From: Thermasporomyces composti
GTDB taxonomy: Bacteria; Actinomycetota; Actinomycetes; Propionibacteriales; Actinopolymorphaceae
DNA length: 64,000 nt
Direction: 5' to 3'
Assembly: GCF_003386795.1 (NCBI RefSeq)
Contig: NZ_QTUC01000001.1
Coordinates: 682,001-746,000 of the forward strand
A program made the position numbers and the translations under genes. The notes below the pieces were generated by a model. That model worked only from the letters and a program-made list of their open reading frames with translations. It made no database searches and was not told where the DNA came from. Every line of letters begins with the position of its first letter. The first letter of the stretch is position 1. Positions 733 to 33,412 of the stretch are shown piece by piece.

Positions 733-1599
733 TTACCAACGCCCACGCCGTGGAGGCCGCTGACAACGCGGACACGTGAAGGAGGAGCGATTCATAAATG
801 GATCACGGCGAATCGGCGTGCCACAACGGCGACACGGCTGTCCCTCTCGACCGTAGACGGCCAGCTCGCGCTCGAAGTAGCCGCTACGGCCATTGACGTC
901 GACGTACAAGCTGTCGAACGACGTACCGCCTGAGTCGATCGCCGCCACCATGACAGCGCGGACCTCCGCCAGCAGCGTGGAGACCTCGCGAGGACGCAGC
1001 AACTCGGTGGCCCGCGCGTAGTGCAGTCGCGCACGCCACAGTGCCTCGTCGGCGTAGATGTTGCCCACGCCGGAGATCAGCGTCTGATCGAGCAAGGCAC
1101 GCTTGACGCCGGTGCGTCGTCGGCGCAGTGCGGCGACGAACGCCTGATCGTCGAATTCCGGATCGAGCGGATCTCGGGCGATGTGGTTGATCTCCGCCGG
1201 AAGCCGCGCACCACCCGTACTGATCGACAAACCGCCGAACATTCGCTGGTCGACGAACCGAAGCTCAAACGGGGTGCGGCCCTCTACCGGCACGAACGAA
1301 AAACGTACGCGCAGATGCCGCTCGTCTTCCGATCCAGGCTGTCGGAGGACGAACTGGCCGCTCATCCCGAGATGAGCCAGAAGCGCGTCACCCGAATCGA
1401 GCGGAAGCCACAGGTACTTCCCGCGCCGACACGCACCGAGGATGCGGCGCCCGATCAGCCGGTCGCAGAAATCTCTGGGTCCGGCGAGGTGACGTCGGAC
1501 CGATCGGGGATGTCCGACCTCGACGGCCGCGATGTGAGCTCCGGCGACGAAACGCTCCAAACCACGCCGGACGACCTCCACCTCGGGAAGTTCGGGCAT
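733..1599 (-). CDS. mutM: Formamidopyrimidine-DNA glycosylase (Fpg/MutM)
   Basis: Bifunctional base-excision enzyme that removes 8-oxoguanine and formamidopyrimidines and cuts the abasic site. The 288-residue length is normal. It begins MPELPEVE, where Pro2 is the nucleophile and Glu3 the catalytic acid, has the lysine of the GRGK-like loop near residue 61 (CRRGKYLW), and ends with a zinc finger (Cys256, Cys259, Cys276, Cys279, with [11 protein letters not shown]). All key residues are present. It starts 9 bases after the rnc stop, so it is probably cotranscribed with rnc, rpmF and yceD; the same order occurs in Mycobacterium and Streptomyces. Confidence 0.97.
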
Positions 1600-21977: not shown

Positions 21978-23564
21978 TCAGTCGCCGGCCTGCCGGCCTT
22001 GAGCCCGTACCAGCCCGTACGTCACGCCATCGACCAGCGCCTCCCAGGACGCCTCGACGAGGTTGTGGCCGACGCCGACGGTCTCCCAGGAGTCCTGGCC
22101 GTCGGACAGCTCGATCAGGACTCTGATCACCGCGTCGGTGCCGTGTCCGGACTCCAGGATGCGGACGCGGTAGTCGATCAGGTCGAACTTCTCGACGACG
22201 GGGTAGGCCTTTCCGATCGCGCCCCGCAGGGCACTGTCGAGCGCGTTGACCGGGCCATTGCCCTCCGCGGTGACGATCATGCGCTCGTCACCGGCACGCA
22301 GCTTGACGGTGGCCTCGGACACGGCTTCCTGGCCGGGGCGGGAGTCGGTGATCACCCGCCATGACTCCACCTCGAAGAACGATGGCCGTGCGCCGTCGAC
22401 CTCCTCCATGAGGAGCAGCTCGAACGACGCGTCCGCGGCCTCGAACGTGTAGCCGCACGCCTCCATCTGCTTGACTCGATCGGTGATCCGGGTGAGGAGC
22501 TCCCGGTCGTCGCCCAGCTCGTAGCCGAGCTCGCGTCCCTTGAGCTCGATGCTGGCGCGACCGGCCATGTCGGAGACGAGCAGGCGCATGTCGTTGCCGA
22601 CGTCGGCTGGGTCGATGTGCTGGTAGAGGTTCGGGTCCACCTTGATCGCGCTGGCGTGCAGACCCGCCTTGTGGGTGAACGCCGACGCGCCGACGTAGGG
22701 CTGGCGAGAGTACGGCGGGACGTTCGTCACCTCCGCCACCGCGTGGGCGATCCGCGTCGCCTCCCGCAACGAGGACTCGGGGACGAGCTTGCGGCCCCGT
22801 TTCAGCTGGAGGTTGGCGACGATGCTGATGAGGTCGGCGTTCCCGGTCCGCTCGCCATACCCGTTGAGCGTGCCCTGCACGTGCGTGGCACCCGCGTCGA
22901 CCGCGGCGAGGGTGTTCGCGACCGCGCAGCCGGTGTCGTTGTGGCAATGGATGCCGAGGCGAGCTCCCGTTCCGTCGAGGACCGCTCCGACGATCTCACC
23001 CACCTCATCGGGCAGCATGCCGCCGTTGGTGTCGCAGAGCGCGATCACCTCAGCACCGGCCTCGGCGGCGGTCCGGACGACCTCCAAGGCGTACGCCGGG
23101 TTGTCGCGGTAGCCGTCGAAGAAGTGCTCGGCGTCGAGGAAGACCCGCTGCCCGCCCGCACGAAGGAACTCGATGGTCTCGCGCACCATGGCGAGGTTCT
23201 CCTCCAGGGTGGTGCGCAAGGCGAGCTCGACGTGCCGGTCGTGGCTCTTCGCGACCAAGGTGACGACGTCCGCGCCGGAGTCCCGCAGGGCCTGGACGAG
23301 TGGGTCGTCCTCCACCTTCAGGCCGGGGCGACGGGTCGAGCCGAACGCTGCGAGCGTCGCGTTCCTCAAGGTCAGCTCGGTCTTGGCCCGGTTGAAGAAC
23401 TCGGTGTCCTTGGGGATGGCGCCAGGCCACCCTCCCTCGATGAAGCCGACTCCCAGCTGGTCGAGGTAGCGGGCGATGACGAGTTTGTCCTCGACTGAGA
23501 GGTTGAGTCTTTCTTGCTGCGCCCCATCACGCAGCGTGGTGTCGTAGACGTGGAAGTCGTTCAT
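21978..23564 (-). CDS. cimA: (R)-citramalate synthase
   Basis: Condenses pyruvate and acetyl-CoA to citramalate, giving a threonine-independent route into isoleucine synthesis through leuCD and leuB. The 528-residue length and the opening [15 protein letters not shown] fit the CimA/LeuA2 branch of the HMGL family; [12 protein letters not shown] is the metal-binding H-x-H site, [15 protein letters not shown] a family motif, and the C-terminal third is the LeuA-type dimerisation and feedback domain. The start at 23564 has AAGGAG nine bases upstream. A terminator and a short Ile-rich leader peptide precede it. Confidence 0.94.
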
Positions 23565-23604: not shown

Positions 23605-23634
23605 AACAAAAAACCTCTCGCGGGTGCGAGAGGT
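23605..23634 (-). terminator. Rho-independent terminator in the cimA leader (attenuator)
   Basis: On the minus strand ACCTCTCGC, loop ACCC, GCGAGAGGT is followed by TTTTTTG (23606-23612), a textbook intrinsic terminator, 41 bases before the cimA start codon. A second, larger hairpin (23637-23666, GCGCGC arms with an inner GGGCGC/GCG pairing) lies just before it, right after the leader peptide stop. Together they look like the terminator and pause structures of an attenuator. Confidence 0.85.
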
Positions 23635-23666
23635 CTGCGCGCGGGACGCCGAAGCGCCCAGCGCGC

Positions 23667-23693
23667 CTAGCTAATAATCATCGTCGACAGCAC
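23667..23693 (-). CDS. Putative cimA leader peptide
   Basis: GTG CTG TCG ACG ATG ATT ATT AGC TAG encodes an 8-residue peptide, M-L-S-T-M-I-I-S. The two adjacent isoleucine codons are ATT, a codon rare in this GC-rich genome, and stand next to the stop. There is no ribosome site; a CAGACT -10-like hexamer ends seven bases before the GTG, so it is probably read from the 5' end of the transcript. An internal ATG would give M-I-I-S only. Stalling at the Ile codons would be expected to alter folding of the hairpins downstream. Not recognised from any described family. Confidence 0.6.
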   Translation of the reverse strand: MLSTMIIS

Positions 23694-23700
23694 GTTGGAA

Positions 23701-23731
23701 AGTCTGCCACATCCGACGTGGTCGGCGTCAA
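23701..23731 (-). promoter_or_regulatory. Promoter of the cimA leader transcript
   Basis: TTGACG (23726-23731), a 19-base spacer and CAGACT (23701-23706) on the minus strand. The transcript would start at or one base before the leader GTG at 23693. The spacer is longer than ideal. Confidence 0.5.
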
Positions 23732-23777
23732 TCCCGCCGTGTCACCATCACGTCACCCAAGGGCGTATAGGTCGGGG

Positions 23778-23804
23778 ACCTGCGGTCGACCGTCGACCGC
23801 AGGT
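23778..23804 (-). terminator. 12-bp perfect hairpin upstream of the cimA promoter
   Basis: ACCTGCGGTCGA, loop CCG, TCGACCGCAGGT. It lies between the DUF397 gene (stop at 24010) and the cimA promoter and would isolate the cimA leader from upstream transcription. The rest of 23805-24009 shows nothing I can interpret. Confidence 0.55.
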
Positions 23805-24009
23805 CTGGCACACGGATTCCCCGTCGGGCGGGGCGTCTCGTCCGCGTTCCCGCTGTCCGGCGGCGCCGCCGCGTGACACACGGTCGCCCGCGCCGCCGCA
23901 AGCGGACCTGACGGTCGGAGCGAGCGGCTCATCAGCGGCCTCGATCGCTGGACTGTGCTCGAGGGAGCCCGACCATTGGCCCAGGAGAGCCGGCCGTCTG
24001 ACGTCCTCG

Positions 24010-24270
24010 CTAGGCCCCCGACGGGTCGACCTCGAGGCGCGCGGGATCGAACTCCCCGTCCTTCGCCCCTGCCAGGAACGCCTCCCACTCCGCGGGGGTG
24101 AAGACCAGCACGGGACCGTCGGGGTTCTTGGCGTGCCGCATGCCGATCAAGTCGTCGACGAAACCGACCTCGATCTCCGCGTCCTCGCTGGCCTTTCGCC
24201 ATTCGGCCCTGCTGGCGTCGAAGGTGCCCTTGAGGGGGTGCGTCGTGGTGGCGTTCGATGTCTCCGCCAT
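24010..24270 (-). CDS. DUF397 domain protein
   Basis: An 86-residue protein whose second half, AKNPDGPVLVFTPAEWEAFLAGAKDGEFD, is shared with DUF397 proteins, a family abundant in actinobacteria and often paired with an XRE-type regulator. No such partner lies beside it here. The ATG is preceded by GAGGAGAGCAGG. Function unknown. The N-terminal 25 residues are low-complexity and polar. Confidence 0.85.
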   Translation of the reverse strand: MAETSNATTTHPLKGTFDASRAEWRKASEDAEIEVGFVDDLIGMRHAKNPDGPVLVFTPAEWEAFLAGAKDGEFDPARLEVDPSGA

Positions 24271-33265: not shown

Positions 33266-33307
33266 GGTTGGCCTTTCTCGCGGGCGGATCGTTTTTCGGT
33301 GGGAAGC

Positions 33308-33339
33308 AAAAACCCCTCGGCCCGAAGGGCAACGAGGGG
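33308..33339 (-). terminator. Rho-independent terminator in the ilvB leader (attenuator)
   Basis: On the minus strand CCCCTCG ... CGAGGGG with an inner GCCC/GGGC pairing, followed by TTTTTG (33308-33312), 43 bases before the ilvB start codon. With the leader peptide at 33371-33412 it forms a branched-chain amino acid attenuator. Confidence 0.85.
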
Positions 33340-33370
33340 ATGCGCGCTGGCTGGGAGCTGTGTGGATCGC

Positions 33371-33412
33371 TCAGCCGGCGCGCTCACGAAGTACGAGAAT
33401 CTGGTCACGCAC
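33371..33412 (-). CDS. ilvB leader peptide
   Basis: GTG CGT GAC CAG ATT CTC GTA CTT CGT GAG CGC GCC GGC TGA encodes M-R-D-Q-I-L-V-L-R-E-R-A-G. The Ile-Leu-Val-Leu run contains the three regulatory amino acids, with the rare codons ATT, GTA and CTT. It resembles the ilvB leader peptides known from Streptomyces and Corynebacterium. No ribosome site is present; the GTG is at or near the predicted transcript start. Scarcity of any charged branched-chain tRNA should stall translation here and favour read-through into ilvB. Confidence 0.8.
   Translation of the reverse strand: MRDQILVLRERAG

Follow-up and report, generated by a model that had tools for sequence, protein, structure and literature searches.

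In the trp leader of Escherichia coli, transcription reads through or stops at an intrinsic terminator according to where the ribosome stands on the control codons, and antiterminator and terminator have bases in common. The described systems closest to the element analysed here are the actinobacterial ilvB leaders, namely Streptomyces ilvL (peptide MRTRILVLGKRVG, then a stop), the Corynebacterium ilvBNC/ilvB-II motif and Mycobacterium tuberculosis ilvB1, in which a short ORF with branched-chain codons precedes an intrinsic terminator. According to the accessible parts of the respective papers, there is experimental support for the ilvB1 attenuator (PMC13236596) and reporter data for the ilvB-II motif (PMC10272879). 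The part of Seliverstov et al. 2005 drawn on here describes trp, trpS, cys, ilvB, leuS, leuA and ileS elements and none for cimA; it also notes that some actinobacterial leaders are without certain attenuator parts and calls the ilvB mode unclear (PMC1262725). A table of eight Streptomyces lividans leaders, in the part of that study available, does not have cimA among them (PMC8079986), and neither PMC6429828 nor PMC2965389 uses the word citramalate in its main text. No cimA attenuator was found in the open-access literature among the matches listed.

The locus compared here with these systems lies on the minus strand of a 64-kb stretch of DNA from Thermasporomyces composti (the window). A sequence-only reading had proposed an Ile-codon attenuator upstream of cimA, consisting of promoter-like hexamers, a leader ORF, a GC-rich hairpin and a terminator with a T-run, and all of these parts were recovered in the minus-strand sequence at the positions it had assigned. 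The −35-like hexamer TTGACG (23726..23731) and the −10-like hexamer CAGACT (23701..23706) are separated by 19 nt, and the latter lies 7 nt 5' of the leader start codon. A related −10-like motif, TGTGGCAGACT, is matched in 8 or more of its 11 letters upstream in 50 of 61 aligned elements (mean 9.0 compared with 6.3 in shuffled sequences), the motif being derived from these very sequences. The leader ORF (23667..23693; GTG CTG TCG ACG ATG ATT ATT AGC TAG, translated as MLSTMIIS) has eight sense codons and a stop and is probably leaderless, with a predicted transcription start. Its two adjacent ATT codons for isoleucine (23673..23678), the putative control codons, are present as had been described, but one Ser codon (AGC) separates them from the TAG. 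The ORF is followed by a 30-nt hairpin with a GCGCG/CGCGC base (P1, 23637..23666), which is adjoined by the hairpin of an intrinsic terminator (T, 23611..23636). The six-T run of the terminator (23608..23613), four columns of which are invariant across the 61 elements, ends 43 nt from the ATG (23564) of the downstream gene (21978..23564, minus strand). Its identification as cimA was borne out by the citramalate synthase profile TIGR00977 of NCBIfam, with 636.6 bits against a cut-off of 450.

The leader folds at −46.1 kcal/mol, compared with −33.5 (sd 3.3) in 200 shuffles, none of which was as low (z −3.9). A covariance model of the 61 elements (R1), the cimA site of the window included, scored the site at 75.9 bits (E 1.4e-21), and a model of the P1 and T hairpins alone (R2) scored it at 66.8 bits. 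No Rfam 15 family exceeded its gathering score at this site, at the window's ilvB leader or at one cimA leader of genus g32 (see below); the only match was a sub-threshold snoRNA, within cimA on the opposite strand. Upstream on the same strand there is a gene that we take, from reading its translation, to be ilvE, and a DUF397 gene (24013-24270, minus strand) lies between it and the cimA leader. A near-perfect inverted repeat of 29 nt (23777-23805) was also observed upstream of the cimA promoter.

The element is widespread and not local to this genome. A first CimA search gave a match in 50 of 57 genomes, and in the best 30 loci, the window's own (L003) and 29 relatives, the element was kept without exception. 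The 61 aligned elements were chosen by a pattern requiring both an Ile codon and an end rich in T, after removal of one false case (L065) and addition by hand of one locus (L032) to the first set. Among named genomes, a full-model match was located directly upstream of cimA in 33 of 80 CimA loci (the best 80 of 583), including Nocardioides, Nonomuraea, Kutzneria, Amycolatopsis, Lentzea, Pseudonocardia, Cellulomonas, Demequina and Motilibacter, as well as two MAGs, of Ilumatobacteraceae and Acidimicrobiaceae. The other 47 of these best 80 loci had no full-model match upstream, and many of them belong to other phyla. With strict filters, R1 matches, which include those before ilvB and other genes, were retrieved from at least 255 of 394 genomes and at least 109 of 138 genera of the class (E 0.01), and from at least 76 of 396 genomes of the phylum (E 0.001). 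Fifty-one R1 loci were fetched and 44 read, and the CimA start was found 31-224 nt downstream of the match in 40 of them; the remaining four were the leuS of the window's genome, a locus cut by a contig end, and two loci without CimA (L148 and L160). As a control of specificity, 16 of 17 genomes from other phyla or other actinobacterial classes gave no R1 match at E 0.01. The single control match (L164) precedes a 2-isopropylmalate synthase gene and has a leader with Leu codons.

Since the 61 elements had been preselected for an Ile codon, we used the hairpin-only model R2, built from 52 sequences, on cimA genes picked by protein search in 124 of 158 genomes of the class. Of the 124 upstream regions, 120 were scanned, the window itself, two with the cimA start off the contig and one more being left out. 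A full-length, sense-orientation match to P1 and T was detected in 89 of the 120, at least five of which were also used in building the model. Together with the 30 loci above, this upholds the expectation that the short ORF and terminator would be conserved in relatives. Upstream of P1 in the 89 regions, ATT or ATC starts 8, 9, 11, 12 and 14 nt before the hairpin in 42, 23, 55, 25 and 25 cases, respectively, against a background mean of 0.93 per position at 20-60 nt. An Ile-bearing leader frame was present in 87 of the 89, and the two exceptions were a match mis-anchored in P1 (L301, in whose genome the element reads MIIG) and a locus with one ATT farther up (L297). The 31 cimA regions without the element gave no full R1 match either with filters off, apart from one 9-bit partial match; eleven of them belong to family f21 and eleven to family f29. 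In several of the 17 that were read, the end of an ilvE-like gene almost reaches cimA, leaving no room for the element.

Both hairpins are supported by compensatory changes. In the 59 distinct rows of the 61-element alignment, changes on both sides were found at six of ten P1 pairs and five of nine T pairs. Paired cells amount to 97.8%, compared with 88.0% in shuffled and at most 55.9% in slid alignments; double changes number 115 against 37.3 and at most 13, and the covariation score is 0.374 against 0.193 and at most 0.093, respectively. Further pair types did not exceed the shuffles (24 compared with 23.1; 175/500). P1 and T share no bases, yet adjoin, with a spacer of 0 nt in 52 elements and 1 nt in nine, and the length of P1 is free (23-54 nt).

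The leader codons occupy a fixed place relative to these hairpins. All 61 aligned elements have an Ile-bearing leader frame, with peptides taken from the nearest start codon, so that some are shorter than the likely leader. The rarity of ATT noted in the sequence-only reading agrees with the CimA genes of the same loci, where this codon accounts for 25 of 1,007 Ile codons (2.5%), compared with 80 of 145 (55%) in the leaders (ATT versus ATC, Fisher p 5e-60). The last Ile codon starts 8 nt before P1 in 38 elements and 9 nt in 23, that is, in all 61. Its distance to T varies between 31 and 62 nt (sd 5.1) along the RNA, but shrinks to 8-9 nt (sd 0.5) once the folded P1 is left out of the count. 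In 46 elements the stop codon starts 2-3 nt upstream of P1, and in the other 15 it starts 10-16 nt inside the hairpin. In E. coli, the ribosome covers 12 nt, counted from the A-site codon's first letter. With this value, the median loss from P1 is 0 nt for a ribosome on the first Ile codon, 4 nt on the last and 10 nt on the stop, and P1 keeps at least half of its stability in 59, 44 and 0 of the 61 elements, respectively. Thus, a stall at the first Ile codon leaves P1 standing and a ribosome at the stop destroys it, a layout that distinguishes stalled from finished translation. On this geometry, P1 is likely to report the position of the ribosome. If starved ribosomes mostly stall on the last Ile codon, P1 would lose 3-4 nt, half stability being kept in only 44 of 61.

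The same layout, with a leader ORF, P1 and an adjoining T, is shared by the ilvB leader of the window (33306..33412, minus strand; peptide MRDQILVLRERAG, then a stop). It is the second match in the window, with 28.3 bits for R1 and 32.7 bits for R2, the next matches scoring 14.9 and 12.7 bits, respectively; despite these scores, it is absent from the lists of 150 candidates scored for the genome. In those lists, the second match, that of R2 included, is a leuS leader in the same order (C1:3675304-3675385; 1481-1582, plus strand, in L114), which encodes MPVALLLSEPR before its stop. In Streptomyces as in this genome, the leuS leader has control codons, P1 and an adjoining T arranged as in the cimA element, from which it differs in its Leu codons and tRNA-synthetase gene; the part of PMC1262725 consulted calls it a classical attenuator. 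The S. lividans IlvL peptide pattern occurs in seven of ten g32 genomes (five exact, two with one mismatch), so g32 is taken as Streptomyces, and an example of its cimA leaders encodes MLSFAMIIGSRRAGPQ followed by a stop. In the ilvB leaders of the window and of g32, P1 adjoins T or lies within 2 nt of it, as in the cimA element, which is unlike them in having another gene downstream and Ile codons alone.

In other classes, R1 matches precede ilvB, cimA, leuS, leuA or leuB in 39 of 44 loci read. The five loci without a window protein downstream (L175, L192, L194, L198 and L207) were left out of element parsing, and L180 could not be parsed. In the 40 parsed sister elements, the P1-T spacer is 0 nt in 25 and 1-4 nt in 15. 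Two of the five have features of their own: L192 (2068-2152, minus strand) has a leader-like ORF ending in GFVAIA before isocitrate lyase, not an amino-acid gene, and L194 resembles an ordinary gene-end terminator. All four leuA leaders carry a Leu triplet and end in DILLLT, NLLLT, GLLLR and ELLLR. The corresponding genes (L164, L172, L184 and L187) are 2-isopropylmalate synthases above NCBIfam cut-offs, with 27-31% identity to CimA. Leu triplets were also found before leuS in four of five cases, and mixtures of Leu, Val and Ile before ilvB. Leaders before leuB, in leuB-ilvE units, end in VIIR in three cases and VAIG in one (L182, L186, L188 and L197), and the four genes are 3-isopropylmalate dehydrogenases by NCBIfam. 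With Ile before cimA and Leu before leuA and leuS, the control codons follow the gene. The LEU element described before actinobacterial leuA likewise places a leader peptide bearing control codons ahead of a homologous enzyme; in the part of the source available it is presented as a pseudoknot involving the Shine-Dalgarno region, with no terminator reported (PMC1262725), whereas the leuA leaders of other classes have P1 and T.

Taken together, end-product codons in a short ORF, an intrinsic terminator before the gene and free RNA that changes with the position of the ribosome, three features of leader-peptide attenuators in the broad sense, are found here; a fourth, more read-through on scarcity of the cognate amino acid, would be expected. 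The element is very probably an isoleucine-sensing, ribosome-mediated transcription attenuator of cimA, a reading that comes from the sequence. The short, probably leaderless ORF would be translated during its own transcription. With plentiful Ile-tRNA, the ribosome would reach the stop and cover the 5' arm of P1; P1 would not form, T would fold and transcription would end before cimA. With scarce Ile-tRNA, the ribosome would halt at the Ile codons that immediately precede P1, allowing P1 to form and T to be by-passed. As cimA is biosynthetic, P1 should accompany read-through. The explanation as a whole, an attenuator gated by P1, seems probable to us. The part of PMC1262725 available reports that leader codon changes in the S. 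coelicolor ilvB leader, a sister element, were without effect on regulation, which counts against it.

How P1 would lead to the by-passing of T is a separate question. We propose, with somewhat less than even confidence, that the stalled ribosome, P1 and the polymerase leave no slack for the ends of T to meet in the exit channel. Such an arrangement predicts the parts that are conserved, namely the two linkers, and the part that is free, the length of P1. Ribosomes close behind the polymerase prevent terminator hairpins, according to the part of PMC5021804 at hand. T is thermodynamically favoured with P1 formed too, so the folding lends the no-slack step no direct support.

The main rival of that step fits the same geometry: P1 would be a pause hairpin holding the polymerase for the ribosome, and termination would be set by the distance or release of the ribosome, without any blocking of T by P1. 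Known leaders include such pause hairpins, and the fixed distance between stop and P1 suits a hairpin opened by an arriving ribosome. A pause role alone explains neither the adjoining of P1 and T, seen in 52 of 61 elements, nor the avoidance of T on stalling, and we regard it as unlikely to be the answer.

We consider it improbable that the element works as a classical attenuator of the trp type, in which, on stalling, part of P1 would pair with part of T as an antiterminator that excludes T. This is the standard model; the accessible parts of two papers propose it for M. tuberculosis ilvB1 (PMC13236596) and, for Corynebacterium ilvB-II, pair the P1 loop with the right side of the terminator (PMC10272879), and a few Nocardioides elements show such a loop by eye. 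However, when 0-12 nt were masked, or else the 5' half of P1, the middle pair of T kept a mean probability of at least 0.996 (minimum 0.87) in the 61 elements. The mean was at least 0.977 in the 40 sister elements, with single cases at 0.26, 0.46 and 0.76. Across 54 unique elements, pairing of T with its own P1 was no better than with foreign or shuffled P1 (fractions as good 0.49-0.69), whereas the true P1 and T helices stood out in the same test (0.08 and 0.17). A competing antiterminator from the P1 arms, the P1 interior or both T arms was thus rejected on thermodynamics and coevolution, by masked folding and by complementarity at chance, with single exceptions among the sister elements (L203, L186 and L197). 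Pairing of the P1 loop with the right side of T did not rise above chance when set against other species' sequences and shuffles. Given a short and probably leaderless leader, the RNA 5' of P1 would lie under the stalled ribosome and could hardly supply a partner.

The attenuator reading made from the sequence therefore stands as regards the Ile codons, which keep a fixed distance from the hairpin and change with the gene, but the GC-rich hairpin does not form one half of a competing antiterminator of the classical kind. The cimA element resembles E. coli trp in its ribosome-position logic and is unlike it in that no terminator-sharing antiterminator was found in the cimA elements, which also sets them apart from the published ilvB models. 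As far as tested, P1 does not act by base-pair competition, and this is the basis of the no-slack proposal. It is highly improbable that P1 and T merely terminate the upstream ilvE/DUF397 unit as an ordinary double hairpin, with a short ORF arising by chance, as, despite these same-strand genes and hairpin clusters described as terminators in the part of PMC8355165 available, R2 with filters off singles out only the cimA and ilvB leaders in the 64-kb window (66.8 and 32.7 bits; next 12.7), and such a terminator would leave unexplained why there are Ile codons, why they keep a fixed place and why codons are swapped.

It is possible, though rather less likely than not, that the cimA, ilvB, leuA, leuS and leuB leaders are one modular device without a competing antiterminator, in which P1, gated by the position of the ribosome, removes the slack between stalled ribosome and polymerase so that T cannot close, and codons are swapped while hairpins and linker lengths are kept. 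A cimA element alone would only add to the known attenuators; the new aspect is the missing antiterminator. If the attenuator reading is true, much of the class, including a large genus of antibiotic producers (taken as Streptomyces), would have a feedback switch on the step that commits citramalate to isoleucine synthesis. It would also bear on the old puzzle of actinobacterial leaders without some attenuator parts. Because the linker lengths are conserved, the antitermination mode of such leaders is directly testable, and nature has provided a clean experiment in the swap from Ile to Leu codons between CimA and its homologue LeuA. Having defined control codons, these leaders would be ready amino-acid sensors for engineering.

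Several minor observations concern variants of the element. Family f23 has a second Ile-codon element per genome (L148, 2190-2624, and L160, 2536-2622, both on the minus strand). That of L148 has a small neighbouring ORF that appears ACT-like (IlvN/IlvM) by eye only, with no Pfam or NCBIfam match. In two Nitriliruptoria MAGs (L081 and L087), the region upstream of cimA contains Ile codons followed by a different, larger hairpin with no obvious T-run. Finally, P1 has GCGCG/CGCGC as its five basal pairs in the 59 distinct rows, one row differing at the first pair, and almost every lineage keeps this base, even though pairing would be possible with any stem rich in GC.
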